From assembly GCA_021234155.1 (NCBI GenBank), contig JAJEKV010000321.1, positions 1-64,000 on the forward strand: a stretch of 64,000 nt of DNA, read 5' to 3'. The translations under genes were made by a program, and so were the position numbers. Position 1 is the stretch's first letter. Every line of letters starts with the position of its first letter. A model generated the notes under the pieces. It was not told where the DNA came from. It ran no database searches and saw nothing but the letters and a program-made list of their open reading frames with translations. Source of the stretch: Isoetes taiwanensis. Lineage: Eukaryota > Streptophyta > Lycopodiopsida > Isoetales > Isoetaceae. Shown here piece by piece: positions 11,117-41,613 of the stretch.

Positions 11117-11141
11117 AACAAGATTGCGTATTAAACGGGAG
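11117..11141 (+). repeat. Left terminal inverted repeat of outer E
   Basis: AACAAGATTGCGTATTAAAC followed by GGGAG starts right after target AGTT. It matches the reverse complement of both right ends (36588 and the inverted 39260) with three to five differences. Confidence 0.75.
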
Positions 11142-13193
11142 CAAATCATCGAAACGAGAGCAAAAGGAATATTCCTTAAAGATTCCTTTTTTTTTTACAA
11201 AAAGGGGGTAAAACGAGGTTAAAAAAAAAAAAAGATGCATAAAATTCTATTTTGACCCCCCCAAAAGTGACTAATTTTTTTGTGCAACGAAAGAATTGAC
11301 TTTTTGAAAGTGTCATTTTTCTTAGCAAATAGAATGTTCTTGAAGTATATTTTACGTGAGAAACCCTAATTTCAGAGGATAAAATATTTAACAAAAAATT
11401 GAAGTTAGTCCGTAACTGAAACTGTAGTATTCTCAAATTTTGAAGATAGAATCTTCATATTCACATACAAAATTTACAGTCTTTTTCTAAGACTCAGTTA
11501 TGTACAAAAGTGTGAGGAGTGATGAGAGAGGGATCTAGGACGTCATCATATTCATTTATACCATCTTCATCACCTTCACTTCTTTCACTGTCACTAGAGG
11601 AAGTGCTTGAGTTATCTTCCTCATCACTATCAACAGATGGTGTAGCATTGCCACCACCTTGTTCATCCTCTTCTTCGTAATTACAAGCTTTTTTAAGCAA
11701 ATTGATAGTCCTCTGGCGTAGACGATTGTCAGATTTCAATTTAAAATCGTAGCACAATATAGTCACGTCATTAAGGATCAGCTCATCCCTACAACCCACC
11801 TTCTTGGACTTTCATCCTTTTCTTTGGCTTCTCATTTCTAACTCATATCTACCTTCAAAAGCATTTTTCTGAGCGAGTTGCAAGCCAATGAATCTTGAGT
11901 TTAGTGACTAAGCCTTCCTCCTTGGTTTGTGTCAAGCACTTTTGCTATCCGAAAAGGTCGACCTTTGTCATCCTCCTCAGTTGGAAGAGCAATTAGCATA
12001 CCCTTGGTAATTTCTGTGATGTTACCTTGAGGCTCATTCCTGCGTCTTGGTCCGAGGTACATGACTCGATCCTCGTCTTCTTCTCTTTGCAGTGCTAATG
12101 TAGCATTGCTTGGACCTTGGTCTTTGGGGGTTGATGGAAGGTGTTAGGCCATCGAAATGGTTCTTGCAAGCTGTCTTAGAGCTATATTTTTCACAACAAT
12201 TTTTCTGTTCGAGAAAGAAAATTACTCCACCACATCCGATCTTCTTCTAAGAAGTACTTAAAGCCGAGGAAATTCCATTTTCAATGGCTTTTAAGGATGA
12301 CTTCTGGGGTACTTTTCTTACGCTTGGACTCCTTAGGATTTTTGAGAGGAAGTTGTTCAAAGACGTTCTATGAAGCAAGTAATGCGGAATATATTTAAGG
12401 AAGCGTAATCCCTACGGTGGACTCAGGTCCTTAGTTGTGGTATACTTCTTCCCGTGTAAGAAACTCTCGGCCATCCTTCAAGTAGAACTTGATGTGATGT
12501 TGAAAGGTGAGATCATTCAACTTGTTCCAAAAGCTTGTTCTCTGTCTCCAACGTTGAGAGAAAACAAACTCTCACGAAATCAGCGATCTCTTTAAGAAGA
12601 TCGATCACCGGTGGGAGTGTAAGAATCTTCAATAATTGAACTAATGTAGGAAGGAGAAAGCCTTCTTCCTTCTAAGGCGCCTTAAAATCTGTTGAACATT
12701 TGGTCAATCCGATCATGAGTGTGGCCTACAAGTAAGAAAACCGAGCTTCACTTTTCTAAAGATCCCAAGCTCCACTAACATAGCACAAGTATGCAAAGAG
12801 TGTTTGATTCTTGTTCTCCCTTGTAGTATTGTCAAGTTGCAGGTAAAAAGCGGTGGTAATTGCTCTTGCTTTCGCCTGGGACCTTGTTAAGAATTGTAAT
12901 TGTGAGGTTAGGGTCACCATGCAAGTTTGGATATGTCAAAAATACTTTGCACTTTAGACTTCCTTTGAAGACCATAGCTCCTACAAGGTGGACCTTAACA
13001 AAATATTCCTCTGGCACATCTTTAGGAATGTTCAAGAAATGTGGTAGAGTAGTTTTTTGGTCCATTCCATCAATCACAATGAACATATATTGCTGATTGG
13101 ATGTTCAAGAGCTTTTTTCTATGTTTGGCAAGCTTTCTTCTCTCTGCTTTGCTTGTTGTTCACGATGTGCGGCAAGATTCTGTTGCACAATAT

Positions 13194-13260
13194 CTGTAGA
13201 AGAAATAAGGTCAAAGCATTTTTTTTAAAATAAATGAGAGATTGAAGAACATGAGCTTAC
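13194..13260 (-). other. 67-bp intron in DUF7869 gene, copy 1
   Basis: The minus strand reads GAAAGAA/GTAAGC.. TTTCTTCTACAG/ATATTG. The equivalent intron in copy 2 is 17773-17707, also 67 bp. In copy 3 the acceptor reads CTACG because a CTG has lost a base. A spliced gene argues against a bacterial origin of this DNA. Confidence 0.75.
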
Positions 13261-13536
13261 TTCTTTCGACCTCTGTCTTTGCAGTTTCTCTTTGACTTTT
13301 TAATTCTGCACACCTTGAGCAAACATACATTCTGTGTCTCCCGGGAATTTTCACTAAACCGAATTCACTTTTCCGCGACCGGTGAAGTGTGAGTAAGAGA
13401 TGTGTTGAAGTCGAAGTGCAAAGTCTCTTTGTACTCATTAAAAACATCTTTTTGGTGATGTTATCGGTTAAATGATACATGTTCTTTGGCGTTTCTCACA
13501 TGTTTCTCTAAAATATTTCTCCATCCATGACACAAA

Positions 13537-13788
13537 GGGCAAAAGTATCTTTGGTGGGTATCAAAAAACGCTGCCCCAAACACTTAGATCGACACCACGG
13601 ATGTACTATTCTATCATAGTATTCCACTTGTCATTCATTGGAGCTGTTACATATTTCTATTGATTACCTAATTACCATGTGCTAGTACCAGTAACACCCT
13701 AAACAAGCTGCCATATGGGGTGCTATATGAGTCTTTGTCGACATCGTCCGGACGATGCTTTTGATACCCACCGAGCATACTTTTGCCC
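13537..13788. mobile_element. MITE, 252 bp, in DUF7869 copy 1
   Basis: The ends are GGGCAAAAGTAT and ATACTTTTGCCC, inverted repeats that continue imperfectly for about 28 bp. The inside matches the element at 50317-50564 (TATCATAATATTCCACTTGTC and CAAGCTGCCATATGGGGTGC blocks). DUF7869 copies 2 and 3 lack it, which shows an insertion. I could not settle its target duplication here. Confidence 0.8.
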
Positions 13789-15353
13789 AGCAGCAGGGCA
13801 TGCATGGTTACAACTCTTCTTGGTCCACAATGATCATCAATTGCTGGATTTTTGTCCGATCTTTTGTGTATTCTAGACATTACGGTGGACTCTAAGCGGT
13901 GGACAACCATAAAGCATTTACGGCAAACTTCTTGGCCGGTTAATGTAGTGCAAGAAGGTGTTCTTGGTGCGGCCTTACATGATAGGCCAAGTAGGCATTC
14001 TGGTCAGCCAATGTCATTGAACCCAGTAGTTGTCTCTAATTGCTCGTAATTTAGACATGTTAAATTTGTTGATACATCCCAATGAGCAACATTTACTTCT
14101 TAAAAGTCTTCTCATTTTATGCTCGTCCATAAGGTTTCTTCTTCTTACAGAGGAGCATGCTCTCAAACCATAATCCACCTTGAATTTCTTTGTGGACTGG
14201 CAGAGAAGCAGCGTAATCTCGTTGCACGCCGTTGGTGTCTTCATCTTACAAGAGAGTTCTACTCACAGGGGTGACCTCCTCTCGCCCTTAGTGGTGTGCT
14301 TGTAGAGGAGAACAAACCGATGAAGTATGCATACAGGATAAAGGCGGAGGTGCAATGTTGAATGAAGGAGATGGGCCAGCATATGATGTGCCAGCGAAAG
14401 TTGTTGTAGCATCTTCACGGGGAGTTCGATCAAACATATCTCTTATAGCGGTGAAATTACGCAAACCCATGTGTCACCACGTTTGTGTGAAGAGGAGTAG
14501 ATGCTGCAGGGTCGTCTTCATTTGTAGTGAAATCGTGGTGGGAGAAACGATGGAGAATCTCATGATCTTGAGCGTGATGTATTCTGGCATGTGTAAGTGA
14601 AGATGGAGAAACAACAAACAACGGAGGTAGTCCGTTCAAACATTTCTTTGAGGTCGAGCTATCGTAGTGTGAGGGGGATGGTACAAATGGTGGTGGAAGA
14701 TTGCCTACGCGGCAATTTGTGTGAGGGTTGGAAAGGTGGTGGCAGCCGGTTTCCTACTGGACTTGGAGAGGGTTGGAAAGGTGGTGGCAGTCTACTAGTT
14801 ACTGGACTCGGAGTGTCTTCGAGAAGCAACAAAGACCTTGTCGAGGTAGGTGTTGAAGAAGCATCTCCGTCTTGTGTTCCATCTGAAGTAGAGGTACTTG
14901 GGCAAACAAATGGTGGTGGAAGTTTGTTCACGAAGCGGTTAACCATGTCAAACAACTGCAAAAAATAGTGGGCTTGTTACTAACTCACAAGTCGATTGGA
15001 CTAATGATATTCGAGAATACAAATGCTATTCTGGAATAGTATTTTGTGTGCAGCATTTGCTGTGTGTGTGCAAGAATGCTATTCCAGAATACACTTATCC
15101 AGAGTGTTTGGACAAGACGTATTCCGCATCACATAGAAAAACACAACTGACAGTGGCCTACCTTTAAAAAGGAAAATCGAGCGCCTCAATTGCGTATTCC
15201 GCTTTCAGAGATTTAGTCGCCAGCCCGAGCGCCTTCCGATCAATATACATTTGCTGTATTCCGATTTACATAGCGAAAATAATGGGCGGGGTAAGCATAT
15301 GCCAAAAGTACATAGCACGTCTTTCTTTTGATTCTGATTTGCTTTTTGAAGGC

Positions 15354-15630
15354 CAAAGTGTATTCCGAATACACTTTGCCCTTCAGCGAAAAACAAAGTG
15401 TATTCCGAATACACTTTGCTTTACTTTGCCCTTGCTCAGCGGCGAAAAGCAAAGTGTATTCGAAACTCACATACACTTTGCCCTTTCGGGTGAAGAGCAA
15501 TTCACCCGAAGGGCAAAGTGTGGGCAAAGTGTATGTATTCCGGAATACACTTTGCTCTTCGCCAGTGAGCAAAGTGTATTCCAGAATACACTTTGCTCTT
15601 CGCCTGAAGGGCAAAGTGTATTCTGGAATA
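15354..15630. repeat. Palindromic array 1 (outer E, left part)
   Basis: Repeated AAAGTG..CACTTT palindromes with core GTGTATTCCGGAATACAC and variants at the centre (CCAG, CTGG, or a lost base). Spacers such as GCTCTTCGCCTGAAGGGC are themselves the inverse of neighbouring spacers, so the whole tract can fold. It is cut at GTGTATTCTGGAATA by the second E copy at 15631. The missing half, AATACACTTTGC, is at 36589-36600. Another palindrome pair lies at about 15015-15105. Confidence 0.9.
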
Positions 15631-15655
15631 AACAAAGTTGCGTATTAAACGGGAG
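15631..15655 (+). repeat. Left terminal inverted repeat of inner E
   Basis: AACAAAGTTGCGTATTAAAC plus GGGAG, directly after AATA of the interrupted palindrome. Confidence 0.75.
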
Positions 15656-16005
15656 CAAATCATCGAAACGAGAGCGAAAGGAATATTCCTCAAAAATTCC
15701 CTTTTTTTTTTACAAAAAGGGGCTAAAACGAGGTTAAAAAAAAAAAAGATGCATGAAATTCTATTTTGACCCCCCCAAAAGTGACTAATTTTTGTGTGCA
15801 ACGAAAGAATTGACTTTTTTAAAGTGTCATTTTTCTTAGCAAATAGAATGTTCTTGAAGTATATTTTACGAGAGAAACCCTAATTTCAGAGGATAAAATA
15901 TTTAACAAAAAATTGAAGTTAGTCCGTAATGAAGCGTAGTATTCTCAAAATTTGAAGATAGAATCTTCATATTCACATGCAAAATTTACAGTCTTTTTCT
16001 AAGAC

Positions 16006-19000
16006 TCAGTTATGTGCAAAAGTATGAGGAATGATGAAGGAGGGATCCAGGACATCATCATGTTCATTTATGCCATCCTCATCACCTTCACTTCTTTCAC
16101 TATCACTAGAGGAAGTGCTTGAGTTATCTTCCTCATCACTATCAACAGATGGTGTAGCATTGCCACCACCTTCTTCATCCTCTTCTTCGTAATTACAAGC
16201 TTTTTTAAGCAAATTGATAGTCCCTGCGGCGTGAGACGATTGTCGATTTCAATTTAAAATCATAGCACAATATAGTCCGTCATTAAGGATCAGCTCATCC
16301 CTACAACCCACCTTCTTGGACTTTCTCCCTTTTCCTTGGCTTCTCATTTCTAACTCATATCTACCTTCAAAAGCATTTTCTGAGCGTGTTGCAAGCCAAT
16401 GAATCTTGAGTTTAGTGACTAAGCCTTCCTCCTTGACTGTGTCAAGCACTTTTTGCTATCCGAAGGTCGACCTTTGTCATCCTCCTCGGTTGGAAGAGCA
16501 ATTAGCATACCCTTGGTAATTTTACGTGATATTACCTTGAGGCTCATTCCTGCGTCTTGGTCCGAGAGGTACATGACTCGATCCTCGTCTTCTTCTTCTT
16601 GCAGGTGCTAATGTAGCATTGCTTGGACCTGCTTTGTCTTTGGGGTTGATGGAAGGTGTTAGGCCATCCAAATGGTTCTTGCAACCTGTCTTAGAGCTAT
16701 ATTTTTCACAACAATTTTACGTTCGAGAAAGAAATTACTCCACCACATCCAGATCTTCTTCTAAGAAGTACTTAAAGCACGAGGAAATTCCATTTTCAAT
16801 GGCTTTTAAGGATGACTCACGGGGTACTTTTCTTACCTTGGACTCCTTAGGATTTTTGAGAGGAAGTTGTTCACATGCGTTCTATGAAGGAAGTGTGGAA
16901 TATATTTAAGGAAGCGTAATCCCTCTTGTGGACTCCAGTCCTTAGTTGTGGTATACTTTTTCCCCCAGAAGAAACTACGGCCATCCTTCAAGTAGAACTT
17001 GATGTGATGTTGAAAGGTGAGATCATTCAACTTGTTCCACGGCTTGTTCTGCAATGCGAGCGTTGAGAGAAAACAAACTCTCTGAAATCAGCAGTCTCTT
17101 TAAGAAGATCGATCTTTGGAGTGGGAGTGTAAGAATCTTCAATAATTGAACTAATGTAGGAAGGGAGAAAGCCTTCTTCCTTCTAAGGCGCCTGAAAAAT
17201 CTCTTTGAACATCTGGTCAATCGATCATGAGTGTGGCCTACAAGTAAAAACCGAGCTTCACTTTTCTAAAGATCCTAGCTCCACTAACATAGCCACGGTA
17301 TGCAAAGAGTGTTTGATTCTTGTTCTCCCTTGTAGTATTGTCAAGTTGCGGGTAAAGCACGAGGGTGGTAATTGCTCTTGCTTTCGCCACGGGACCTTGT
17401 TAAGAATTGTAATTGTGAGGTTAGGGTCACCATGCAAGTTTGGATATGTCAAAAATACTTTGCACTTTAGACTTCCTTTGAAGACCATAGCTCCTACAAG
17501 GTGGACCTTAACAAAACATTCCTCTGGCACATCTTTAGGAATGTTCAAGAAATGTGGTAGAGTAGTTTTTTTTTGGTCCATTCCATCAATCACAACAGAC
17601 ATATATTGCAGTGGACGTTCAAGAGCTTTTTACGTGTTTGGCAAGCTTTCTTCTCTCTGGCGCTTGTTGTTCCGCGATGTCCGGCAAGGTTACATTTGCA
17701 CAATATCTGTAGAAGAAATAAGGTCAAAGCATTTTTTTTAAAACAAGTGAGAGATTGAAGAACATGAGCTTACTTCTTTCGACCTCTGTCTTTGCAGTTT
17801 CTCTTTGACTTTTTAATTCTGCACACCTTGAGCAAGCGGACATTACGTGTCTCCGGGGAATTTTCACTAAACCGAATTCACTTTTCCACATCCGGTGAAG
17901 TGTGAGTAAGAGATGTCTTTGAAGGCTGAGTGCAAGTCTCTTTGTACTCATTAAAACATCTTTTTGGTGATGTTATCGGTTAAATGATACATGTTGTTGT
18001 TAGGCGACTTCTCACATGTTTCTCTAAAATATTTCTCCATCCATGACACAAAGAGCAAGGGCATGCATGGTTACAACTCTTCTTGGTCCACAATGATCAT
18101 CAATTGCTGGATTTTTGTCCAGTCTTTTGTGTATTCTAGACATTACGGTGGACCCTAAGCGGTGGACAACCATAAAGCATTTCGGCAAACTTCTTGGCCG
18201 GTTAATGTAGTGCAAGAAGGTGTTGCTTGGTCACGGCCTTACATGATAGGCCAAGTAGGCATTACGGTCAGCCAATGTCATTGAACTGTAGTTGTCTCTA
18301 ATTGCTCGTAATTTAGACATGTTAAATTTGTTGATACATCCCAATGAGCAGCATTTACTTCTTAAAAGTCTTCTCATTTTATGCTCGTCCATAAGGTTTC
18401 TTCTTCTTCTAGAGGAGCATGCTCTCAAACCATAATCCACCTTGAATTTCTTTGTGGGTGGCTAGAGAACGCGTAATCTCGTTGCACCGTTGGTGTCTTC
18501 ATCTTACAAGAGAGTTCTACTCGGGGGTGACCTCCTCTCCCGCCCTTAGTGGTGTGCTTGTAGAGGAGAACAAACCACGTGAAGTCATGCAGGATAAAGG
18601 CGGAGGTGCGGTGTTGAATGAAGGAGATGGGCCAAGCATATGATGTGCGGCCGAAAGTTGTTGTAGCATCTTCACGGGGAGTTCGATCAAACATATCTCT
18701 TATAGCGGTGAAATTACGCAAACCCATGTGTCACCACGTTTGTGTGAAGAGGAGTAGATCTTTGCGGGTCGTCTTCATTTGTAGTGAAATCGTGGTGGGA
18801 GAAACGATGGAGAATCTCGTAGTCTTCAGAACGTGATGTATTCCTGGCATGTGTAAGTGAAGATGGAGAAACAACAAACGGCGGAGGTAGTCTGTTCAGA
18901 AACATTTGTTGAGGTCGAGCTATCGTAGTGTGGGGGGATGGTACAAATGGTGGTGGAAGATTGCTACGTGCAGCTTGGTGAGGGTTGGAAAGGTGGTGGC

Positions 19001-19215
19001 AGCGGTTTCCCTCTTGGACTTGGAGAGGGTTGGAAAGGTGGTGGCAGTCTACTAGTTCTTTGGACTCGGAGTGTCTTGAGAAGCAACAAAGACCTTGTCG
19101 AGGTAGGTGTTGAAGAAGCATCTCCGTCTTGTGTTCCATCTGAAGTAGAGGTACTTGGGCAAACAAATGGTGGTGGAAGTTTGTTCCGGCGGTTAACCAT
19201 GTCAAACAACCGCAA
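16006..19215 (-). pseudogene. DUF7869-type protein, copy 2
   Basis: Same order as copy 1 without the MITE. Proline-rich N-terminus from 19215, SKCCSLGCINKF near 18340, CRKCFMVVHRLG near 18180, CSRCAELKSQ near 17820, intron 17773-17707. Then IDGMDQKKTTLPHF near 17580, LPP..LDN region near 17340 and FLLVGHTH-type region near 17250. IHWLATRSENAFEGRYELEMRS lies near 16400, and the acidic tail runs to the stop at 16006. It is closely similar to copy 1, but frames break repeatedly. Many breaks sit at CAG/CTG triplets where copies 1 or 3 keep the normal base, so part of the damage may be base-calling error. Confidence 0.7.
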
Positions 19216-19599
19216 AAAATAGTGGGCTTGTTACTAACTCACAAGTCGATTGGACTAATGATATTGAGGAGAATACAAATGCTATTCGGAATAGTATTTT
19301 GTGTGCGCATTCTTTGTGTGTGTGCAAGAATGCTATTCGGAATACACTTATCGAGTGTTTGGACAAGGCGTATTCCGCATCACATAGAAAACACTGGCCC
19401 GATTGGCCTACCTTTAAAAAAGGAAAATCGGCCTCGATTCGCGTATTTCCGCTTTGGAGATTTAGTCGCCCGGCCCGAAGCCTTCGATCAATATACATTT
19501 GTTGTATTCGATTTACATAGCGAAAATAATGGGATGGTAAGCATGTAAAGTACATACATATGCGTCTTTCTTTTGATTCCTGATTTGCTTTTGAAGGCC

Positions 19600-19872
19600 A
19601 AAGTGTATTCCAGAATACACTTTGCCCTTCAGGCGAAGAGCAAAGTGTATTCCGGAATACACTTTGCCCACACTTTGTCCTTGCTCACTGGCGAAGAGCA
19701 AAGTGTATTCGGAATACATACACTTTGCCCTTAGGGTGAAGAGCAATTCACCCAGAAGGGCAAAGTGTGGGCAAAGTGTATGTATTAGGAATACACTTTG
19801 CTCTTCGCCGATGAGCAAAGTGTATTAGAATACACTTTGCCCTGAACCAAGGGCAAAGTGTATTCTGGAATA
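19600..19872. repeat. Palindromic array 2
   Basis: Same repeats and spacers as array 1 in the same order, ending at the same GTGTATTCTGGAATA where a further E left end starts at 19873. The identical junction shows tandem duplication of the left half of inner E rather than an independent insertion. Confidence 0.9.
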
Positions 19873-19897
19873 AACAAAGTTGCGTATTAAACGGGAG
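19873..19897 (+). repeat. Duplicated left terminal inverted repeat of inner E
   Basis: AACAAAGTTGCGTATTAAAC plus GGGAG again after AATA. There are three left ends (11117, 15631, 19873) but only two right ends in the window. Confidence 0.75.
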
Positions 19898-20245
19898 CAA
19901 ATCATCGAAATGAGAGCGAAAGGAATATTCCTCAAAAATTCCCTTTTTTTTTTACAAAAAGGGGCTAAAACGAGGTTAAAAAAAAGATGCATGAAATTCT
20001 ATTTTGACCCCAAAAGTGACTAATTTTTTGTGTGCTTGAAAAGAATTGACTTTTTAAAGTGTCATTTTTCTTAGCAAATAGAATGTTCTTGAAGTATATT
20101 TTCTGAGAGAAACCCTAATTTCGAGAGGATAAAATATTTAACAAAAAATTGAAGTTAGTCCAGAATCGAAACTGTAGTATTCTCAAAATTTGAAGATAGA
20201 ATCTTCATATTCACATGCAAAATTCTGATCTTTTTCTAAGACTTC

Positions 20246-29803: not shown

Positions 29804-29821
29804 AAAGTTAGTGTGTCCCTG

Positions 29822-30415: not shown

Positions 30416-30599
30416 TGGTTTCGGTTCTTAGGTGGTGGAGGGCGTGGATTGGTTCCACACTCGTGAGTAACCTTGCCATGTTCACCGCCACTATTTGTTG
30501 CTTATGTCTAGTCGCCTTGCCAAAATTCCCTCCTCGCCCCGGAGATTGCATCTATAAAATATGAACCACCCTCTCAGTTGCTTTCCTTTGATGTTTTGT

Positions 30600-31035: not shown

Positions 31036-32270
31036 AATTCCATATTGAGCTAAAACATGGGAGTAAGCCTATCGTCCAAAGGCTTAGGAGAATTAACCCA
31101 GTATTGGAGCCGCTGATTAAGATTGAGATTGACAAAATGTTGGAGGCGGGTCGATCGGGCATATTGATAATCGAATGGGTGTCATGCATAGTTCCAGTGA
31201 GGAAGAAGAATAAAAGGCTAAGAATTTGCGTAGACTATCAAGAGTTGAATAAAGCAACCAAAAAAGAGTTTTATCCGTTACCATTTTTGGAGGAGGTATC
31301 AGATGAGAAAGGTGAAGTGAAAAAGTATTCATTTCTGGACGGTTTTTCCAGTTTTAATCAGATAGCGGTAAGGCAAGAAGATCAGCCTAAAACTTCATTC
31401 ATCACGCCATGGGGTACTTTTGCAATGGTTATGCCGTTTGGATTAATGAATGCACCGTCTGTTTTTCAGAAAACAATGGATAAAGTATTTGAAGCAATGC
31501 CTAGAGAAAAGTTCAGGGTGTTTTTGGATGATTTGTGCCTAGGGACATCAAGGGAGCAGCACGTTAAATTTGTGCACACTGTTTTGGAGCTTTGTCAAGC
31601 AGGGAATGTATGCCTAAACCCGAGAAAATGTGTGTTCAATGTAGATGCAGGGGTGCTCCTTGGTCACAAGGTGTCAATTAAGGGAGTGCAGGCTGATCAA
31701 AACAAGGTGGACTTAATCAAAGCATTGCCAGCTCCGAGGAATCTCAAGGAGGTAAAGAAATTGGTGGGTATGATGAGCTTCTTAAGAATTCATGTGCCAA
31801 ACTTTTCTCACATAGTGTCACCTATTACAAAACTAACTCGGGTGGGTGCTGTGTCCAAAGCTAAGAGTAAATACATGAAGGTTTCATGGGATGATGCATG
31901 TCAGAAAGCATTTGAGACTATAATGACCAATTTGAGTGTTGCAACCTTTCTGGAGAGGCCAGACTACATGAAACCCTTTGAAGCATACATAACTGTAACG
32001 GCAAGAGCTGTAGGGTTGGTCTTGATGCAAGATAAGAAACTGATTAAGTTTGCTGGAAAGCAATGGAGCATTGCAGAAGCAAGATATCCTACAAGTGAGA
32101 AGTATGCGGCTGCTCTTATTTATCTCGTGGATAAACAGGGATATCTCTTCCTCCATCAGCATGTTTCTGTGTATATGAAGCACAACCCCATGAAATTTCT
32201 TATGGGCAAAGGCGCAGAAGAAAGGATAAATTGTGCAATTGGGCTGCTAAGTTGTCAATGTTTGATTTGA
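31036..32270 (+). pseudogene. Gypsy reverse transcriptase and RNase H
   Basis: An open frame from about 31036 to 32270. RT blocks: LRRINPVLEPLIKIEIDKML, VPVRKKNKRLRICVDYQELNK, YPLPFLEEV, YSFLDGFSSFNQI, KTSFITPWGTFAMVMPFGLMNAPS, VFLDDL at 31518-31535 (F-L-D-D in place of Y-x-D-D), then LGHKVSIKGVQADQNKVDLI. The RNase H of gypsy type follows: PFEAYITVTARAVGLVLMQ, ARYPTSEKYAAALIYLVDK, MKHNPMKFL. The frame stops at 32270, in place of the expected read-through to integrase. Few copy-type errors are visible here. Confidence 0.85.
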
Positions 32271-32468
32271 AAAATTGAAGCCGCATTACAATAAGCAAAG
32301 GAACCTAAGCCTATCTTCCATATCGTTTTTATAACCATGATTTTTGCCTTTGAAGGGGACGATGAAAATGTGAACGAAAAAGAATATGCAGGTCAGTCGT
32401 GGGAGAGCTTGTTCATTAAGTTTGAGGAATCATGGATGAAACCAATTGTAGACTATCTAATATATTAG

Positions 32469-33681
32469 TTGGTGCCAAAGGATCTCACTAAGGAGAGTGC
32501 AAGAAGATTTAAGGAAAATTGCCTTAAATATGTGATGGTTGGTGATGTGCTGTGCTATAAGGACAGGTCAGGCCTATACCTTAGATGTTTGGATGAAGTT
32601 GAACAAGGAATGGTCATAGAAGAATGTCATGCTGGAACATGTGGAGGTCACTACTCAAGTAAAGCGACAGTGAGGAAGATACTAAGGGGAGGATATTATT
32701 GGCCAACAATGCACAAAGACTGTTATAACAAAGTACTTAGATGCCATCAGTGTCAGGTGCATGGAGCTAAGGTTTTGATTCCTGGGCCACTTAATCCAAT
32801 AGTGACTCGTGACCATTTCAAACTTAAACCTTCGGATTATGTTGGCGGAATAGATCCAGATCTTAAGGCAACATCATTATATCCCGGTGTACACCGATCT
32901 TTTCACCAAGTGGGTAGAAGCAGAGTGACCCTGAGAAGCCCACGGCCAAAAACAACAACAAAATTCCTTTTGGAAAACATATGTAGTAGGTTTGGAGTAC
33001 CATACAAATTGTTGACCCGGACAAAGGGCAGATCATTTCATAAATGATGTGGTGGCTTTGTGTAAGGCTATGAAAATCGGACATACAAAGAAGCAGTTCT
33101 TACTACCCACAAAGGCTTGGGGCGGTGAATCTAGTAACAAGGTGTTGAAGAATATATTGAAGAAGACTGTAAGTCTGCATAAACGAGATTGGCATGAGAA
33201 ACTCCCACATGCACTTTGGGTATACAGATTGACCACTAAATATAGCTCAGGCTTCATGCCATTTGAGTTGACATATGGTGTGGAAGCTCATATGCCTATA
33301 CACTTGGAGATTCCAGTGATGCAAATCATGTGCGAGGTCATAGAAACAGATAAAGAAGCATACCAACACAGGCTGGAAATGCTTCTTAAATTAGACGAGA
33401 CAAGAGCTGATGCATTGAGTCATATGCTGATAAGCAAAAAAAAGATGCAGAATAACTTTAAGAAAAAGTATGGTCAGGCAAAAGGTTTTGAACCAGGTGA
33501 TTTGGTGCTAAAGTGGGACAAAGCTCATGAAGATAAGGCGCCAAAATTTGCTGCATTGTGGGAAGGACCTTATTTTATGAAAGGAAAAGCTGGAATAAAT
33601 TCATATGTGCTGACAGATGGCAACTTAAGGGAGCTGCCAAATCCAATCAATGTGCTTCATCTCAAAAGATATTGGCCTTAA
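32469..33681 (+). pseudogene. Gypsy integrase
   Basis: The zinc-binding N-terminus is intact in form: ECHAGTCGGHYSSKAT..GGYYWPTM..CYNKVLRCHQCQ (32625-32755). The catalytic core (32800-33130) is badly worn: the first D region is not readable, and a TRTKGRSFHK stretch replaces the D-N-G-x-x-F block with a stop and frame change near 33047. The C-terminal part reads well: SSNKVLKNILKKTV, PHALWVYRLTTKYSSGFMPFELTYG, KKYGQAKGFEPGDLVLKW, LWEGPYFM, NVLHLKRYWP to the stop at 33681. LTR 2 starts 44 bases later. Confidence 0.8.
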
Positions 33682-33724
33682 GGGGCTGAAGGGACCAGCC
33701 CAACCCTTTGTTTGGGCAAAGAAA

Positions 33725-34732
33725 TGTTGCACCCCTCATTGCAACATTTGAGCAGAAGTCTTTTTAATCTAATATGTTGTGTGTTTTTGCAGGTAAGTCA
33801 TTTTCTAGCATTAATTGGTAGCAGAGCCACGAGTTTGCAAGAGGGCCTGGTGTGTTGGAACACCTCTTGGTGTGTTTATGAACACACCTTGGCCATGAAG
33901 GAGTTATCATGGTGCAGAATCTTAATAGCAGCCAAGATATGAGAAGGTTCACATCAAGGTGCAGGCAAAGTGCGAGAGTTTCGTGTAGCTAGGTGTGTTG
34001 TTTGGATTTGAGAAAACAGGTTTTGGACTTGAGAAAATATGTAATTTGTTTACATCAGAAGGGACAATGTTTACATCATCCCTTTAACAGGATCTGCGTT
34101 ATCAGGTTAAACTAAAGAAGATGAGTGCATGGGCAGTTGGTTAGAGTGAGCAAATTCCATTTGATAATCATGACACATCAAGTACATTACATTTACAGTG
34201 AAGAAAATGCAGTTGTGATACTCATACATTCATGATGCTTAGCCTTATTGTTGCCCTACAGATATATCTGAGTTATTTACAACTTGAACCTGCAAGGTCT
34301 GTAGTTGGAGAAGACTCGAAGTTTGGGAAAGAAGTTTTCATTTTCAATGGTCTCATGGTTACTATGGTTGAATGACCATTGAAATAAAACGAAATATGAA
34401 AATAAAATTTTGGATGTCTTGCTACAGTAACGAGTGTCTCATTGCTACAGTAATTGCTACAGTAAATGTCCGGTTCTAGATCTCGCGCGCATCAGAAATT
34501 CGAAGTAGAAACTTTCTAAATCTATCAACCGAATGCTGATGAAGTGCCGGACCGATTGGAAACGAAGGGGGAGAATATTAGAAGCAGAGGCGGCAGAAAA
34601 ATGTCCAGTTCCCGGCAGCTAGAGGTAGCGATCTGGTAAACTCAAGACTATTTGAATTTATGAAGAGGGACAATCAAGAATCCATCTGCTAGTCTAGGTG
34701 TTGTACTCAGGTACATACTTTCGAGTGCAACA
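33725..34732 (+). repeat. LTR 2 of the gypsy element
   Basis: 1008 bp, TGTTGCACCC..GAGTGCAACA, preceded by a purine-rich GGGCAAAGAAA. It is followed by a primer site and gag, so it acts as a shared middle LTR of a tandem structure. Confidence 0.9.
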
Positions 34733-34789
34733 TCTTTGGAGGTCCTACCGAGATCCATTGGGATCTCGTGATACGCATGTACAATATGC

Positions 34790-35410
34790 CACCCAAAAAG
34801 TTCAGATTGATGATAAACAAGAGGCGGGGGCTGGCGGCATCACAGAAGACGACCATTACCGGATTAATGCTTCTCTTCCTCCTCCTTACCAGATAGAAGT
34901 CACTATGCCAGTACCAACTCCCACCTTTGATGGAGCAGGAAACCCTCGGGGAGTTCGCAACAAATTTTGAGGATTATTATGAAGAGTATGGGAAGAAAAA
35001 AGGTACTAGACAACAAGTTCTAAACCGGCATTGAAAAGGGAAGCAAAGGCTTGGTTGCTCTATCAAGAAAGCCTAGGAATAGCGGTGGGACCGGGAAGAA
35101 TTGCAGCTTTCTTTGACAGGTTTGGTGGAGGTGTTACACAAGGTGGATTACTTGCGCAGAGTTGCACACTATGCAAATTAGGAGAGGAGAGAACATACAT
35201 TCTTATGTTGAGAGGTTTAACCTCTACCTTCTCAAGTGCAAACAGCATGACGTAGAAACACCAAATTTCCATATGATACATGCCTTTGTAAATGGGTTGA
35301 AGCCACAGCCTAAATTGCACAGGAAAATGAGTAAAATACAAGCACTAGGGGGGATAAATTCTATACATGCAGTCGGGATAATCCCAAGCAAAGACATCTG
35401 CATGCTGTTG
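34790..35410 (+). pseudogene. Second gypsy gag N-terminal copy
   Basis: It repeats 28403-29020 closely (PTPTFDGAGNPRG, KREAKAWLLYQESL, NIHSYVERFNLYLLKCKQ). It breaks off near 35412, where the sequence jumps to the last 224 bp of an LTR. Confidence 0.8.
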
Positions 35411-35412
35411 AA

Positions 35413-35636
35413 AAACTTTCTAAATCTATCAACCGAATGCTGATGAAGTGCCGGACCGATTGGAAACGAAGGGGGAGAATATTAGAAGCAGAGGCGGCAG
35501 AAAAATGTCCAGTTCCCGGCAGCTAGAGGTAGCGATCTGGTGAACTCAAGACTATTTGAATTTATGAAGAGAGACAATCAAGAATCCATCTGCTAGTCTA
35601 GGTGTTGTACTCAGGTACATACTTTCGAGTGCAACA
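35413..35636 (+). repeat. Partial LTR 3 of the gypsy element
   Basis: It matches the last 224 bp of LTR 2 from ACTTTCTAAATCTATCAACC to the GAGTGCAACA end, then target copy AGCTT (35637-35641). Confidence 0.9.
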
Positions 35637-35641
35637 AGCTT

Positions 35642-36171
35642 ACTGGAGTTTCGATGGGAAGCGTACCATGGAGCACTTTAACACAGCAGCCTGCCAAAAT
35701 TTTTCTAATGTCCTAGAGTTCCCAGCTATATTTAAGCTCGGGGACCCAAGTGCACAAGGCAAAATTGTGAATCATTACCGAGAAACCCCACGAAGTTAAT
35801 TAACCATCTTCCGATATGTTTTCACGCCCGTGAGATTGGGTCCTAGATGCTTTCTCCGCTCGCACAACAATAGCATGTGCACTTAAAAAGGGCCAGAATC
35901 GCGGTCGTGTTGACATTGATAGAGAGTCTCAGAGACTTTATTAAGATGCGTTATCCGCTCTACCAACTCTACCAGATGAAAATCAAGAGTTGGGAGCCAA
36001 ATCATCATCAGATTTTGCCAAAATGACATCTTCTGAGATACAACCTCCTTTCACAAGCTCTCTGGAAGATGAAGCTACCTTTGCAGAGCTCAAAGAAGTA
36101 GCTCTAGCTACTATTCCCAAGAGACTATCGACACCAACAAGGATAAGACAAGTGACAAAGGAGCAACCGTA
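35642..36171 (+). pseudogene. E methyltransferase gene, inner copy, C-terminal part
   Basis: It continues the gene cut at 27338. Across frame changes: YWSFDGKRTMEHFNTA (35640-35690), a KPREL-type motif X block near 35790, then methyltransferase motif I near 35810-35870 (LDAFSGS..TIACALKKG) and VDID. An ENQELG..SSDFAKM tail and ATFAELKEVALATIPKR follow, stopping at 36170. Motif I lying after motif IV defines the beta arrangement of amino-methyltransferases (PF01555 N6_N4_Mtase is the family to test). The outer copy (39640-40260, minus) agrees. Confidence 0.6.
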
Positions 36172-36588
36172 GAGGAGAGAAAAAGGTAGAGACGAGCAAA
36201 CCACACACCGGGACTTCGATTTAGACCTCGAAGTTAGGTTTTGCTAAATTATTTACTATCGGCTATAAAAAAATATTGCCATATTTGATGTACTGAAAAA
36301 AAAATTTTTTTTTTTTTTTTTTTTTTAACGTTTTTTGGATGTCCTCGAATTCATAGTAATATTCCTCGTGTATTAATGTCTGGAATTTTGCCATTTCCAA
36401 GTGCTCTTTTCTACAAATGCAAGATTATCACTTCAAAAGAGTTCAAAATGCACGATAAAATAGTTTGTTTCAACTTGAAATCCCCAACTTCTTTTGAAAA
36501 TGATCATTTTTTAAATCCTGGTGTTTTTTTCAAGGGAATCTTTGAAACGGGAGTGATGCAACACTCCCGTTTAATTTGCAATCCTGTT
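36172..36588 (+). other. 3' end region of inner E with subterminal hairpin
   Basis: Non-coding and AT-rich, with a run of about 24 T near 36303-36326. It closes with an 11-bp hairpin, AAACGGGAGTG (36545-36555) and CACTCCCGTTT (36562-36572), that overlaps the terminal repeat. The same hairpin is at the outer right end (39276-39303). The left ends lack it. Confidence 0.7.
36564..36588 (-). repeat. Right terminal inverted repeat of inner E
   Basis: The reverse complement reads AACAGGATTGCAAATTAAAC plus GGGAG; it is followed by target copy AATA (36589-36592). Confidence 0.75.
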
Positions 36589-36592
36589 AATA

Positions 36593-38438
36593 CACTTTGC
36601 TTGTATTTTTTAGAACGGTTGTTTGTTTGCACTTAAATAACACACTTTTTAGCTGCAACAGACCACTTTTTAGGTTAAAAATAACACTTTCGAGTCCAGT
36701 TAAGGCACAAGAAATTGACTTAGAGTGACAATATTTTAGCTTATTTTCCTGTCTTTTTCTGGCCTTTAGGGCACAAGTTTAGTAAATGTTATTCTGGAAT
36801 ACAAATTTCGTTTGAATTTCTGTCTTAACAAGGTAGTTTTCAACGTTTCAGTGGCAGGGAAGAAGGAAGCAAGAGGGCATCAAAGAAATCTCAGAAGCCT
36901 AAGCGTCCACACCCTCAGAAGCACACCGCTGACACAGACGAGCCCACTGTTTACGAGAACTTTCAAACGCAGTGGTTCGTGACCAGGGGTGCAGATGGAA
37001 AATACAAAGACACCGACGTTTCAGACGCCCGTAAAAGTGCCGGGTAACAAAAGGTACGCCGACTGAAGTTTGTTAACCTCGGGACAATAAAAGATGTCTC
37101 CGAGGTCTTGGGACAAGAAGGTCGTGGGGAGGCTATCCTTCAAGACCTCCCAAGGCTTCATTGTTGTGGACATCGCGATTCTTCAAAATTGTCATTGTGC
37201 AACCACCGCATCAGACAAATTCTTTTCACACTACCGGACAAAACGGCCTCGTGGTTCATGTATTAGGCAGGTTTGTTCCAAAGACAAGCGAGGACTTTCC
37301 GCCGCTGAGTCCGAAAGCAATCGATGGAGAAAGGTCGAATCACCACCTTCGCTAGTTCTTCGTGGAGGTCATCGATGGAGGTTCCGAGGAACAAGACGAG
37401 GAAGAACCCCCGCGGCGGGCCAAAGAAACTTAGCAGGCCAAGGGCAACGATAGCTGCTAAAGAACCAAAGAAGCTAAAAGTACAAAGCCTTTGATGTTGT
37501 GGAAATCGCCGAGGAACAACCAAAACGAAGAAGGGAAAGGGCAAGGCTCCGGGTGGCCATTAAAGAAAAGAAGGTGGATAAGACCTCGAGAGGATGGAAC
37601 AAATAAATCTTAACAAGTATGTTCGTGGGTAATATACTTGTCAAGAACTTCCATGAGGTTGCCACCGGAAGAATGAAGCCGTGCGCCTTCTTCGTGTTCG
37701 AAAACCAAAGTGCATGGACCCCAAGGAATACGACAGAGAAAATGCAGACACTTACATGCACTATGTCCTTGGGGGAAACCACAGTTTCAAAGCAAGGAGA
37801 TAGTTGTACAAAAAAAAACAACCCAAGATATTTCTCTGTGGTCAGGTTTGCATCGTGGTTGACGGACGAAGAAGCAAAATCGTTGCCAACACGCACAATG
37901 CCGACAACTAATATAAGCTGAAAATGAGCTTTGTGGACAAAATCAGGTTCATGCACAGGGAATATATAATATTTAAAGAAAAATATGGAGATGATTTGAA
38001 GAAGCCACAATACTCATTGGAACTAAAGGAAGCGTGTGCTGTGGAGTGCTGCCTCAAATAACGACGAGGCTAACAAACGGCAGGTCTCTAATACCACACG
38101 ACATAACTGGTTCCAAATTTAGCCTTCAGAGATGGCAGAGTAAGTTGTTTTTGTATTCTGGAATACCCCTGCAGCCCTCCCACTGATATCGCTTTCTTCT
38201 CTCCACATTTGGGACCTCCAAAACGAAATATTCACCATGTTCGAGCGTGGTGATTTGAAAAGCAAAGGCAAGGTCTCCAAAAAGAAAAAGGATCCGAGGC
38301 GTCCCCAAAAAGGAAATGACAATCGTGGTGGCGAGAAATGCAGGGCTTCACAGATATGGATATATTAGAAAGGCTACTGCAAAAGGTTGTCGATAAAGAA
38401 TTTACTCTTGAAGAAATGTCCAAGGAGCTCCACAAGTA
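36593..38438 (+). pseudogene. E methyltransferase gene, outer copy, N-terminal half
   Basis: It starts with the rest of the palindrome split by inner E, then matches 24165 onward. Exon begins TTTCAG/TGGCAGGG near 36851, with KK..KSQKPKR, NFQTQWFVTRGADGKY, GRLSFKTSQGFIVVDI and a VLGRFVPKTSEDF block (near 37260). Later come NFHEVATGRMKPCAFFVFENQ (37640-37705), FASWLTDEEAKSLPTRTMP (37850-37900), SFVDKIRFMHREYIIFKEKYGDDLKKP (37925-38005) and an exon ending EEMSKELHK near 38435. No known domain is recognised in this half. The gene continues, inverted, at 41040. Confidence 0.6.
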
Positions 38439-38507
38439 AGAATGCCACTTTGGGTTCTTGTTTGGTAGGGAGAAGTGTAGTTCGAAAAACACTGGCTTAC
38501 ACGCGAC

Positions 38508-38638
38508 AGACAAAGTGTATTCCAGAATACACTTTGGCTTTCGTGTGTGAAGCAAAGTGTATTCCGGAATACAGTTTGGCTTTCGTGTGTGAGCCAAACT
38601 GTATTCCGGAATACACTTTGTCTTTCGCGTTTCGTAAG
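38508..38638. repeat. Palindromic array 5 (left part of the outer intron array)
   Basis: Three palindromes with core GTGTATTCC.GAATACAC and spacers GGCTTTCGTGTGTGAAGC. The same spacers, reversed, fill array 6. The array stops at the inversion breakpoint near 38640. Confidence 0.85.
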
Positions 38639-38862: not shown

Positions 38863-39259
38863 AGTGCATCATTTTTTTATTTTTTTTTTGAAGGACTTGA
38901 GCCTTTATTATCCAGAGAAAGTTACAGAGTACAATGGGGACTAATAACTCAGTGGAGAGAATGTCCACCAGAGCAAAACCACCCCACTCACATACAACAT
39001 CTAAACAATATGAAGAGCAAGCAAAAACTCATAAGTAAGTATGAATCTGAAGATAGTGCTCCCAAATACGGCTCTTCACCTCATTAGCAATTGATGAGCA
39101 CTTGAATGCTTTGACAATTCGTTGTTGGGCATCAAGAAGGACCTGTGCATCTGAACAAGCCAGACCTTTGAATATGAGAAGATTCCTTCTTTTCCAAATG
39201 GACCAGATGATCCATGCAGAAGCCAAATGAAACGCCCTTTTTGCCAAATTATCCCAACT
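38863..39259 (-). pseudogene. LINE 3' fragment, right part, with poly(A) and target duplication
   Basis: Minus strand from the E target copy AGTT (39259-39256): the frame goes on WDNLAKRAFHLASAWIIWSIWKRRNLLIFKGLACSDAQVL, typical of the end of plant LINE ORF2. It finishes in a poly(A) (38890-38873) followed by ATGATGCACT (38872-38863). The left part is at 10869-11116. Confidence 0.85.
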
Positions 39260-39284
39260 AACAAGGTTGCAAATTAAACGGGAG
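39260..39284 (+). repeat. Right terminal inverted repeat of outer E (inverted segment)
   Basis: AACAAGGTTGCAAATTAAAC plus GGGAG, followed by the subterminal hairpin (39276-39303). Bases 39304-39640 beyond it hold no gene; an AAT microsatellite is near 39523-39541. Confidence 0.75.
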
Positions 39285-39639
39285 TGTTGCAGCACTCCCG
39301 TTTCAAAGATTCCTTTAGAAAAAGCACGGCACTTCAGAAATTGGGCCTTTTTAAGAGAGGTTCAAAGTTTCAGGAGTATCAGTTTTTTTTTTGGCCTGTT
39401 TTTGGGGTACTCTTTGGACAGGACTTTGGTTTTTTGGAGTTAAGCACGTGAAAATAGCAGATTTGAGACATGAGCACGTAATTTATTAGAGGTCGATGTA
39501 CAAAAAACACAAATTTAGTAAACATAATAATAATAATAATTTCATTACTGGTTTTGTGTTATATCAATAATGGCCAATAATGGCAATAAATAATAGATGT
39601 CAATCAGTAGCCACAACAAAAAAATCCGCCGAGATCTAA

Positions 39640-41040
39640 ATTAAAATCTTCTTCATTCTTTGCCGCCTCGCCTTGATCGCAGTTTCTATCGTTTCACCTT
39701 TCTCCGGGTGACTTAGGCTTTTCTCGTGTTGGTGGTCGCTTCGTGTATTGTAGCTAGAGCAACTTCTTTTCAGCTCTGCAAATGTAGCTCCGCTCTTCCA
39801 AAGAGCTTGTAAAGGAGGTATCTCAAGACGCCATCTTAGCAAAATCGAATTAGACTTTGCCCCAACTCTTGATTCTCGCCTGGTAGAGTTGGTAAGGCGT
39901 AAAGTCTCATCTTGATGAACTGCATGACCTCCTTTGTCAATGTCAACTTACACAATTCGGCCCTTCTTAAGTGCACAAGCAATAGTTGTACCCGTGAGCC
40001 GTAAAACGCCATTGTTAATTCCAATCTCCCGGACGCGGAGAACATGTCCGTAAGATGGTTAATAAGTTCGCGGGCTTTTGGTAGTGATTCACTATTCTTC
40101 CTTGTGCACTAGGGTCCCGCAAACGTAACATTTACTGGAAACTCCAACACGCTTTGAAAAGTTCTCGCATGCCGTGTTGAAGTGTTCCATCAGACGTTTT
40201 TCCGTCGAAACTCCAATAAGCCACGTGGAGATATTCGACCTTACTTAGCAGCGCTGGCCTCCACCATGGTAATTAATATTTGTTTTATACCTAAGGAAAA
40301 AAAAAAATAAAGAAGGATTTAAGTCTGACCAAAAGAAACGTATTCGAATAGGAACTCCTAACAAGAATTTAAAATGCTACTGCTTGTAACTAACAACAAA
40401 AAAAAAAAGGTAAGAAAAACAAAAGGACTTGTGTATTCGGAATAAGTGCTTACCAAACCAGATTTTCATAACCGGCTTGGGCAGCGAACCGGTGATTCTT
40501 GAAGTCGGCTTCCACAAGTCCGGATTGCATGCTTGAGTGAAATACTACCCGACCTCAATGTTTTGCCATAGTAATCGCTTTATGCCGCCGATTTAAAGCG
40601 TTAAACTCGTGAGTTTTAAATGGTCGGTCGTCAGAAGGGCCGCCTTCTTCACCTTTAAACCCATATGGAAGGTCGGCTACTACCAAGGTAAAATCTTGGG
40701 GCTTTATTGATTCGCTAATTTGGTGCAATCACCGTGTACAATAGAGAATAGGTTATTTTGATCGAACATTGTAAACCTTTCGTAATGGGAGGCCTCGGAA
40801 TCCAACACGCACCGCCACCGCCCTCTCTTCTCGCGGCCGCCCCCGACTAAGTGCATGAAGCCCCCCAAGCAGTCTTTGTTTTTTTTTTTTGCTCTGCAAA
40901 AAGAACGCCTTAGTAACAAGAAAAACAACAATATAAAAACAAATCAACATACCCACCTTCAAAATTTGGCATGATAATCGACAATCCTTTCGTCCGAGGT
41001 TGCGATAGGATAAAGCTCTTTGCACCTTTCCCAAAACATC
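39640..41040 (-). pseudogene. E methyltransferase gene, outer copy, C-terminal half
   Basis: Minus strand. FGKGAKS near 41020, an intron near 40880-40950, GGFMHLVGGGREKRGRWRCVLDSEASHYERFTMFDQNNLFSIVHGDCTKLAN (40860-40710), then KPQDFTLVVADLPYGF with ADLPYGF at 40677-40657. The run VHGDC..F.LVVADLPYG is the shape of motif IV in N6A/N4C amino-methyltransferases (D/N/S-P-P-Y; here D-L-P-Y). VVFHSSMQ-like residues, KVEYLHV near 40230, a KPRELI-like block near 40070, and motif I GSGTTIACALKKG near 39990 follow. Motif IV before I makes it beta class. Frame changes occur between blocks. The substrate base cannot be told from sequence. Confidence 0.65.
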
Positions 41041-41044
41041 AACA

Positions 41045-41613
41045 TTGATTGTTCTGAATCACACTTTGCTTCACACACTAAAAGCCAAAGCAGATTCCGT
41101 AATACACTTTTGCTTCACACACCTAAAGCCAAAGCGTATTCCAAAAAAAAGAACTACTTTAAAAATCGAAGTGTATTCCGTAATACACTTTGCTTCACAC
41201 ACTAAAGCCAAAGCAGATTCGTAATACACTTTGCTTCACACAATAAAAGCCAAAGCCGTGATTCCAAAAAAGAACTACTTAAATTTAAAAAGTGTATTCC
41301 AGAATACACTTTGCTTCACACACGAAAGCCAAAGCGTATTCCAGAATACACTTTGCTTCACACACGAAAGCCAAAGCGTATTCCAAAAAAAGAACTACTT
41401 AAAAAACTGAAAGTGTATTCCAGAATACACTTTGCTTCACAACAAAAAAGAACTACTTAAAAAACTGAAAGTGTATTCCAGAATACACTTTGCTTCACAC
41501 ACGAAAGCCAAAGCGTATTCCAGAATACACTTTGCTTCACACACGAAAGCCAAAGCGTATTCCGGAATACACTTTGGCTTTCGGGTGTGAGCCAAAGTGT
41601 ATTCTGGAATACA
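41045..41613. repeat. Palindromic array 6 with 110-bp higher-order repeat
   Basis: Many palindromes (TTCC.GAATACACTTTGC) with spacer CACACACGAAAGCCAAAGC. A larger unit containing AAAAAAGAACTACTTAAA recurs about every 110 bp between 41080 and 41470. Read in reverse this continues array 5. The array ends at the inversion breakpoint, where repeat R begins. Confidence 0.85.

Follow-up and report, generated by a model that had tools for sequence, protein, structure and literature searches.

A DNA transposon family of Isoetes taiwanensis with a ParB-like methyltransferase gene opposite a DUF7869 gene and lineage-specific palindromes

Related transposons and the Isoetes element

The closest described counterpart of the element analysed here is Sola1-1_Ec32, a transposon of the brown alga Ectocarpus. 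The element itself is a DNA transposon of the lycopod Isoetes taiwanensis, represented by decayed copies in a 64,000-nucleotide stretch (the window; contig JAJEKV010000321.1, positions 1–64,000) and by further copies elsewhere in the genome. On the strand opposite its transposase, Sola1-1_Ec32 has a gene for a 1104-amino-acid product with ParB-like and N4C/N6A methyltransferase domains, and its authors suggest, in the passages that describe it, that proteins of this kind may bind the transposon encoding them and modify it epigenetically (PMC12477816). The Isoetes element likewise places a ParB-like/methyltransferase gene opposite a gene for a DUF7869 protein, probably its transposase; the pairing, which the initial annotation of the window regarded as undescribed, therefore belongs to a class already known from an algal precedent. 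Sola1-1_Ec32 is 21.5 kb long, and one Sola-1 family numbers 1989 copies, of which 2 are intact (PMC12477816), whereas complete copies of the land-plant element measure 7.4–8.5 kb; the passages on the algal element mention no palindromes, whereas the Isoetes element has arrays of them. Sola1 is also listed from Physcomitrella (PMC9033089). The likeness to Sola1, which is drawn from descriptions of the elements, extends to the 4-bp target-site duplication that Bao reportedly gave in 2009 for the Sola superfamily, a trait present in all eight complete Isoetes copies.

For transposons of green and red algae, ParB–methyltransferase proteins are said to have been described by Iyer in 2011 and by Petroll in 2025. 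Such cases are cited in the Ectocarpus report (PMC12477816); they concern other hosts and possibly another superfamily. In phages, the passages of a further report describe the ParB-CTPase fold fused to an N6_N4 methylase (PF01555; PMC12704722), the same two-domain kind on mobile DNA but in prokaryotic viruses. VANC21, encoded by a VANDAL transposon, is described as binding a short motif of its own, repeated in tandem within introns and between genes; VANC6 is described as acting through another motif (PMC5735166). VANDAL and Isoetes elements would thus share an element-encoded factor and do share a family-specific repeated motif in non-coding DNA that varies between relatives, but VANDAL elements (MuDR) have another transposase, and VANC motifs are short, unlike the perfect palindromes of Isoetes. 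When the exons were scanned against Pfam, DUF7869 was found and nothing MuDR-like was matched, VANC not having been searched for as such. Fungal TET/JBP transposons likewise have an extra gene for an enzyme that modifies DNA, but the enzyme, as described, acts on methylcytosine and the transposases are different (PMC12730594); no KDZ transposase domain was matched in the scanned exons at E values up to 1.

Element anatomy and distribution

The assembly is described as 1658.30 Mb in 204 scaffolds and 909 unplaced contigs, sequenced by nanopore and polished with Illumina reads (PMC8566536), and was searched as 1,658,258,908 bases in 1110 contigs. Profile searches scored 150 of 9907 first-look candidates for DUF7869 and 150 of 1444 for PF01555, the listed hits of both being marked as exceeding cut-offs and the resulting counts being lower bounds. 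Among these 150 + 150 scored hits, at least 24 DUF7869/PF01555 pairs lie within 30 kb, against 0.8 expected. Seventeen have gaps of 4.7–5.6 kb, all of them divergent; the other seven, with gaps of 9–12 kb, comprise five divergent pairs, one convergent and one on the same strand. Ten of the 17 tight pairs were retrieved (L001–L010). DUF7869 exons 1–3 (DUF1–DUF3), the ParB-like exon (PARB) and the second methylase exon (MT2) were matched in 10/10 in constant order, and the methylase exon MT1 and a connector exon (CONN) in 9/10 each; many copies contain stops or frameshifts. Eight DUF7869 hits without a listed PF01555 neighbour (L011–L018) yielded ParB-methylase exons in four (L011, L012, L014 and L016) and only the start of the ParB exon in L018, with none in the stretches retrieved for L013, L015 and L017. 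The copies form three lineages, with DUF7869 core identities of 55–69% between lineage I and the others and 67–79% between II and III, and each lineage has copies carrying the pair.

The element is bounded by 25-bp inverted repeats, termed A on the DUF7869 side and B on the methylase side. In the window, A starts at 11117, 15631 and 19873 (plus strand), and B lies at 36564–36588 (minus strand) and starts at 39260 (plus strand). The motif AACAARRTTGC has four exact matches there against 0.42 expected; the repeat at 36564, which reads AACAGGATTGC, is outside these four. A 34-bp A end has 301 + 282 genome matches with at most two mismatches, and the reversed control has none. Both ends were found in seven of the loci L001–L010, each with an exact 4-bp duplication (ATGT, TTAA, GGTC, AATG, ATAT, CTTA and AAAC), and L003, L008 and L009 have a single recognisable end in the stretch retrieved. 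L016, from another lineage, has different termini, AACAARGTTTAAAATGAAAC, and an exact GGAT duplication. Just inside the common repeat the two ends differ: in 7/10 of the loci L001–L010 the B end runs into the hairpin GGGAGTGTTGCAGCACTCCC or a close variant (window 39260–39310; L001 near 716), which the A end lacks.

That both genes lie between one pair of ends is, in our judgement, practically certain. The proposal of the initial annotation that one element carries the pair thus holds in copies elsewhere, where the same ends enclose both genes, no ends of separate elements were seen, and the gene with motifs IV and I scores as a methyltransferase. As far as the literature search reaches, this abundant family of DNA transposons in a land plant is new; the term 'DUF7869' was not found in the open-licence literature searched.

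The divergent genes

The DUF7869 exon matches its Pfam model at 1.5e-51, far above the cut-off. In the alignment consulted for the acidic triad of a DDE (RNase H fold) transposase, LQLDN and GHTHDQID are invariant in 9/9 aligned rows and IDGMD is present in six, the other three not covering the region in frame. No PDB chain was matched by the DUF7869 profile, and the protein is probably the transposase. The median ratio of non-synonymous to synonymous substitution (dN/dS) of DUF3 is 0.19 (44 pairs, lineage I). In L002:6621–8336, the C-terminal third, past the DUF7869 domain, contains a stretch conserved in lineage I, FW.AKV.DTVKEEG..TKLKIHWL.T...NAFEGRYELEM, which gives the impression of a small chromatin-reader barrel and is matched by no model.

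The last two exons of the divergent gene encode a beta-class methyltransferase, with motif IV (D[LI]PYGF), a QKP stretch and then DAFSGSGTT. D[LI]PYGF precedes DAFSGSGTT in 5/5 aligned proteins from three lineages, an IV-then-I order with a GxG-type motif I. The L002 exon matches PF01555 at 2.1e-17 (64.2 bits against a cut-off of 26.7), in agreement with the N6/N4 methyltransferase named in the initial annotation. The best solved structure is CcrM (2.1e-11), over the stretch containing motifs IV and I. The nine best PDB matches include CcrM, MboIIA, RsrI and DpnA, which by name or recall we take to be adenine enzymes, and three of the nine carry general names only; enzymes named as N4-cytosine methylases appear from E 0.004 down. 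By these matches the methylated base is probably adenine-N6. Median dN/dS over lineage I locus pairs is 0.07 for MT1 (9 pairs), 0.08 for MT2 (38) and 0.15 for the ParB-like part (23), rough values in that pairs with saturated synonymous sites drop out, the remaining synonymous sites are near saturation and frameshifts inflate dN. The apparent constraint on the methylase exons speaks against a passenger gene.

The upstream PARB exon gives weak but repeated matches to ParB-type models (PHROGs, NCBIfam) and to DUF6551 (Pfam). The best is TIGR03764 (0.00037, 3/5 members, below its cut-off), followed by phrog_1033 (0.014) and phrog_723 (0.024), PHROGs having no cut-offs; DUF6551 is matched in 4/5 members, below its cut-off. 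As no curated ParB-type cut-off is reached, the part is termed 'ParB-like' and not 'a ParB'. DUF6551 is named, in the passages on the phage proteins, as fused to the ParB-CTPase fold (PMC12704722). An IgA-protease domain model, matched in 2/5 members (best 2.1e-4, a better E-value than that of DUF6551 there), is probably spurious.

Contig scans for relatives were seeded from short peptide patterns, by which distant relatives are missed, and gave one partial match: the ParB-methylase profile drew 222 stretches from viral_contigs, with one locus (L019) matching residues 533–583 around motif I only, and 253 from genome_contigs with no relative. Under the same limit, no relative was found with the single ParB-methylase protein (7 stretches, viral_contigs), the methylase-only profile (21 stretches in genome_contigs, 188 in viral_contigs) or the DUF7869 profile (18 pattern stretches, viral_contigs).

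Lineage-specific palindromes

The ParB-like part and a set of palindrome arrays, both absent from the initial annotation, are the more informative parts as to function. Of the 18 loci L001–L018, 17 contain one or more nearly perfect 20-bp palindromes, which belong to two related types or are close variants of these; L013 has none. Lineage I has the type AGTGTATTCCGGAATACACT, represented in L007 solely by a variant with two fewer central bases. The other lineages have the GTATAAATTTATAC type, which in L014 and L016, for instance, reads GCGGTATAAATTTATACCGC. The pattern GTAT-N6-ATAC covers both types. A search with this pattern gave nine sites each in L011 and L012 (one each before), all with AATT in the hexamer and five of nine with GAATTC.

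Twenty of the 132 unretrieved DUF7869 hits were drawn at random, and a prediction was written before their sequences were retrieved. Fifteen of these loci have at least one palindrome, with 114 sites in all where 0.15 would be expected. In 15/15 the hexamer type, one-base variants allowed, fits the DUF7869 lineage (eight of lineage I, seven of lineage III). L026, L027, L029, L034 and L039 have no palindromes and no DUF1 or ParB matches. Since L020, L030 and L032 lack DUF1 and ParB matches equally and do have palindromes, truncation of the five is a guess.

The palindromes lie between the divergent genes and between the exon matches of the methylase gene. One of 271 sites in 38 loci is inside coding matches (DUF1 excluded from the coding set), against 126 expected if sites were evenly spread; with DUF1 and looser matches counted, the figure is 12/271. 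In 7/8 complete copies every site inside the element keeps a distance of over 1 kb from both ends, the exception being L016, with a site at about 480. The window itself holds 43 strand matches with at most two mismatches (0 expected), each palindrome being counted on both strands.

Genome-wide, the lineage I 24-mer AAAGTGTATTCCGGAATACACTTT occurs 1474 times and the lineage III 18-mer CGGTATAAATTTATACCG 4415 times, and the reversed control of each 0 times. For lineage II, the 14-mer GTATGAATTCATAC has 64 matches against 11 for its reversed control and 4 for the permuted palindrome GTATCAATTGATAC, and several of these matches lie in clusters next to PF01555 hits (such as C1037:14963677–14966824 and C1059:1169863–1173074); the 18-mer CGGTATGAATTCATACCG had been discarded, with 0 matches owing to the variable flanks in that lineage. 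The core is all but invariant, unlike the outer flanks. Among lineage I sites chosen with at most 8/30 mismatches, the mismatch rate is 0–0.04 in TGTATTC, 0.18 at the central base, 0.07–0.11 in the outer AAAG and 0.33–0.42 beyond; among lineage III sites chosen with at most 6/20, it is 0.01–0.09 in GTATAAA (the 14-bp core) and 0.30–0.66 outside. Of the lineage I spacings below 70 bp, 55/68 are 41–43 bp. Helical phasing was dropped, since counting every distinct spacing a single time left a weak phase signal at 10.45 bp (R 0.22 and 0.24).

No report of these palindromes was found in the open-licence literature, in which palindromes were seldom the search target; with their lineage-specific hexamers they are new as far as that search reaches. 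A regular palindrome of another sequence, AATGGCGCAGCTGCGCCATT, frequently repeated at 27-bp intervals, occurs in L017 (63–324 and 2076–2157) near a 527-amino-acid open frame (L017:2203–3783) for which Pfam gives nothing above its cut-offs; a separate element with similar arrays of its own may be present there.

Mosaic copies

The two halves of the element differ in their divergence between lineage I copies: the median fourfold-site difference is 0.25 for DUF3 and 0.50–0.64 for the ParB-methylase exons. Pairwise alignments place abrupt changes at several positions. L003 and L008 are 95–97% identical over 300–2700 and 56–85% thereafter, the first 300 bases (73%) being unreliable as no A end could be located in L008; the identity of L005 to L009 drops near 3900, and that of L006 and L007 to L010 near 5100, inside the ParB exon. 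As controls for the alignment, L003 and L010 are 92–100% identical (two windows without data) and L002 and L004 82–99%. L002 and L010 are divergent along their full length (46–83%). We read these alignments as recombination that joined similar transposase halves to divergent ParB-methylase halves, at about three junctions. The mosaic copies are new as far as the literature search, of which mosaics were not themselves a target, reaches.

Over 14 loci the Mantel correlation is 0.91 (0/2000 shuffles as high), but it was rejected as a sign of co-inheritance, a check within lineage I indicating that it reflects mainly differences between lineages. Within lineage I (10 loci, protein distances) DUF3 against MT1 + MT2 gives 0.20 (960/5000 shuffles as high), DUF2 + DUF3 against PARB + MT1 + MT2 gives 0.76 (13/5000; 0.71 and 345/5000 without L002 and L004), and PARB against the methylase exons 0.16 (1260/5000). 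Mosaic copies would explain the incongruence of exon 3 and methylase.

Decayed nested copies in the window

The window copies are decayed: an outer copy extends from 11117 to about 41600 with its right end inverted, and an inner copy lies inside it. The nesting, 25-bp repeats and AGTT and AATA duplications of the initial annotation are all present, as is the minus-strand orientation of the DUF7869 genes, but there are three A repeats and three DUF7869 remnants where two of each had been counted. The outer copy begins after AGTT (11113–11116) with repeat A (11117–11141, plus strand) and ends with repeat B (39260–39284, plus strand), which is inverted together with its flank; the flank therefore reads AACT (39256–39259), the reverse complement of AGTT. 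Joining the flanks with one AGTT restores a single open frame of a long interspersed nuclear element (LINE)-like gene, ...LLAVYPS continuing across the junction as SWDNLAKRAF..., so that the outer copy is one insertion. Long inverted repeats of palindromes lie at the inversion breakpoints (38493–38619 and 41468–41594); position 41613, previously taken as the element end, lies in a palindrome array near the second of these.

The left part of the outer copy contains a three-exon DUF7869 remnant (11497–14967, minus strand; this and the following plus- and minus-strand exons were matched by tblastn with the L002 exons) and palindromes (15571–15630), inside one of which the next unit is inserted, with AATA (15627–15630) at the junction. 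The second unit consists of repeat A (15631–15655, plus strand), a DUF7869 remnant (16018–19221, minus strand) and a palindrome pair (19600–19666). In the third, repeat A (19873–19897, plus strand), a possible left end of the copy that ends at 36588, is followed by a DUF7869 remnant (20256–23434, minus strand) and a palindrome array between the divergent genes (23822–24163, spacing mostly 41–42 bp). Over 11117–24087 the three units are about 90–93% alike in long matches with many small indels. The unit 15631–19872 may have arisen by tandem duplication or as another nested copy, the third, and uneven assembly polishing is a further possibility.

The divergent gene of the inner copy is on the plus strand, as annotated, and comprises a broken ParB-like exon (24475–25796), the connector exon (25846–26100), a palindrome between the connector and methylase exon matches (26195–26219), a frameshifted methyltransferase exon 1 with motif IV (26697–27135) and exon 2 in two pieces (27263–27391 and, on the motif I side, 35638–36217). 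The gap between the pieces (27392–35637, bounds approximate) holds a retrotransposon-like insertion; by eye, frames at 28000–35600 resemble reverse transcriptase and integrase. Repeat B (36564–36588, minus strand) and the second AATA (36589–36592) close the inner copy. AATA is duplicated exactly within one outer-copy palindrome (15600–15640 and 36580–36620) and also directly precedes the third A repeat at 19873; a single insertion within a palindrome is insufficient to show targeting, the duplications of other copies being unrelated sequences.

The outer copy resumes with broken ParB-like and connector exons (36907–38436, plus strand) and palindromes (38512–38620) in the left arm of the inverted repeat where the right part inverts. 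In the inverted piece, methyltransferase exon 2 (39765–40292, with GTTIACALKKG at about 39992) and exon 1 (40453–40899, with VADLPYGF at about 40680) are on the minus strand and not on the plus strand to which the annotation had assigned both motifs; a palindrome array (41168–41617) follows at the right breakpoint. A search of all six reading frames of the window did not recover GSGTT, which is clear in other copies. Because frameshifts, stops and the insertion interrupt its genes, the window alone is insufficient proof of the element, which the copies elsewhere supply.

A candidate self-recognition system

We propose a cut-and-paste transposon whose DUF7869 protein would cut the A and B ends and leave the 4-bp duplications, and whose divergent gene would supply a ParB-like, beta-class amino-methyltransferase, probably specific for adenine-N6. 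This protein would recognise the GTAT-N6-ATAC palindromes of its own element, with their lineage-specific middle hexamer, and methylate at those between the divergent genes and between the methylase exons, and the methylation would keep the element's promoters open against host silencing. By analogy, we consider it an even bet that the element encodes such a self-recognition system, VANC-like but with its own base-methylating enzyme. For the palindromes taken by themselves, self-recognition is the best reading, with a chance of about one half, judged from analogy and from their location.

Several observations weigh against this proposal. The ParB match remains under the curated Pfam and NCBIfam cut-offs, and a ParB-only profile compared with the PDB gave three unrelated weak matches and no ParB. 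The putative ParB Box II, its register set by eye, reads G[GS][NT]HS[FY]KAR without the second arginine; since that arginine is given as required (PMC12704722), NTP binding is doubtful. The constraint on MT1 comes from nine pairs with near-saturated synonymous sites. DUF1 is unmatched in lineages II and III, where some of the sites that separate DUF2 from the ParB exon may be coding. The hexamer 'code' is firmly two-valued only, with the contrast clearest between lineage I and the rest: an AATT centre is common to lineages II and III, and lineage II consists of two near-identical loci and the genome count. The sampled lineage I copies retain TCCGGA-type hexamers despite widely differing ParB-methylase halves, and the DUF7869 protein is an equally plausible binder of the palindromes.

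The last point leads to an alternative that we consider unlikely but worth stating first, namely that the palindromes are operators of the DUF7869 protein, or of its N-terminal exons, regulating both divergent promoters independently of the ParB-methylase. In some plant transposons the transposase binds motifs repeated within the element itself; here the arrays are placed between the two genes, and the hexamer can be predicted from the DUF7869 lineage too. Against this, the arrays are internal, away from the ends in 7/8 complete copies, and also occur between methylase exons, and ParB families classically bind palindromes. Alternatively, and close to what the initial annotation proposed, the methylase might protect or mark transposition intermediates, ends or target DNA, for example in timing end cutting, as Dam does for some bacterial transposons. 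The recurrent pairing with the DUF7869 gene and the strong enzyme constraint would suit this role, which we hold improbable as the palindromes, if they are methylase sites, are in mid-element rather than at the ends.

Slightly less probable still is a reading in which the palindromes spread within the element as a selfish satellite or a repeat prone to hairpins, to which nothing binds, with the methylase an old accessory. The regular lineage I spacing fits tandem duplication and five of the 20 random loci lack palindromes, but the 14-bp core of lineage III is kept while its flanks drift, and diverged lineages retain the architecture with other sequences. A partition or clamp-like device for element copies, with the methylase secondary, is very doubtful: the ParB-like matches and the resemblance of clustered palindromes to bacterial centromere sites are offset by the absence, by eye, of the expected NTP-binding arginine, and no ParA-like gene was recognised, though no search aimed at ParA was made. 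That the two genes belong to different, merely adjacent elements can be dismissed: one pair of ends and one duplication surround both in 8/8 complete copies, and the incongruent DUF3 and methylase distances in lineage I (r 0.20) become congruent with DUF2 and the ParB exon added (0.76) and are accounted for by the mosaic copies.

Returning to self-recognition, a more tentative extension, which we think possible but would not favour, is an epigenetic identity code, in which lineage-specific hexamer palindromes would be read by the ParB-like adenine methylase so that only an element's own copies are marked and expressible, and recombination would reshuffle a homogeneous transposase half with far more divergent reader–writer halves. 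The exchange of halves would then resemble the specificity-module swaps of bacterial restriction-modification systems. Self-marking of a transposon by a bacterial-type enzyme has already been proposed for algae, with no binding site named in the passages concerned (PMC12477816). If the proposal is correct, the Isoetes element would provide a targeted writer of N6-methyladenine (6mA), or of N4-methylcytosine (4mC), in plants, where the AMT1 6mA pathway has been reported lost. A conserved enzyme and a lineage-variable candidate recognition sequence in a land plant constitute both halves of a testable pair, and make directly testable the question of whether transposons evade silencing by writing DNA modifications of their own.

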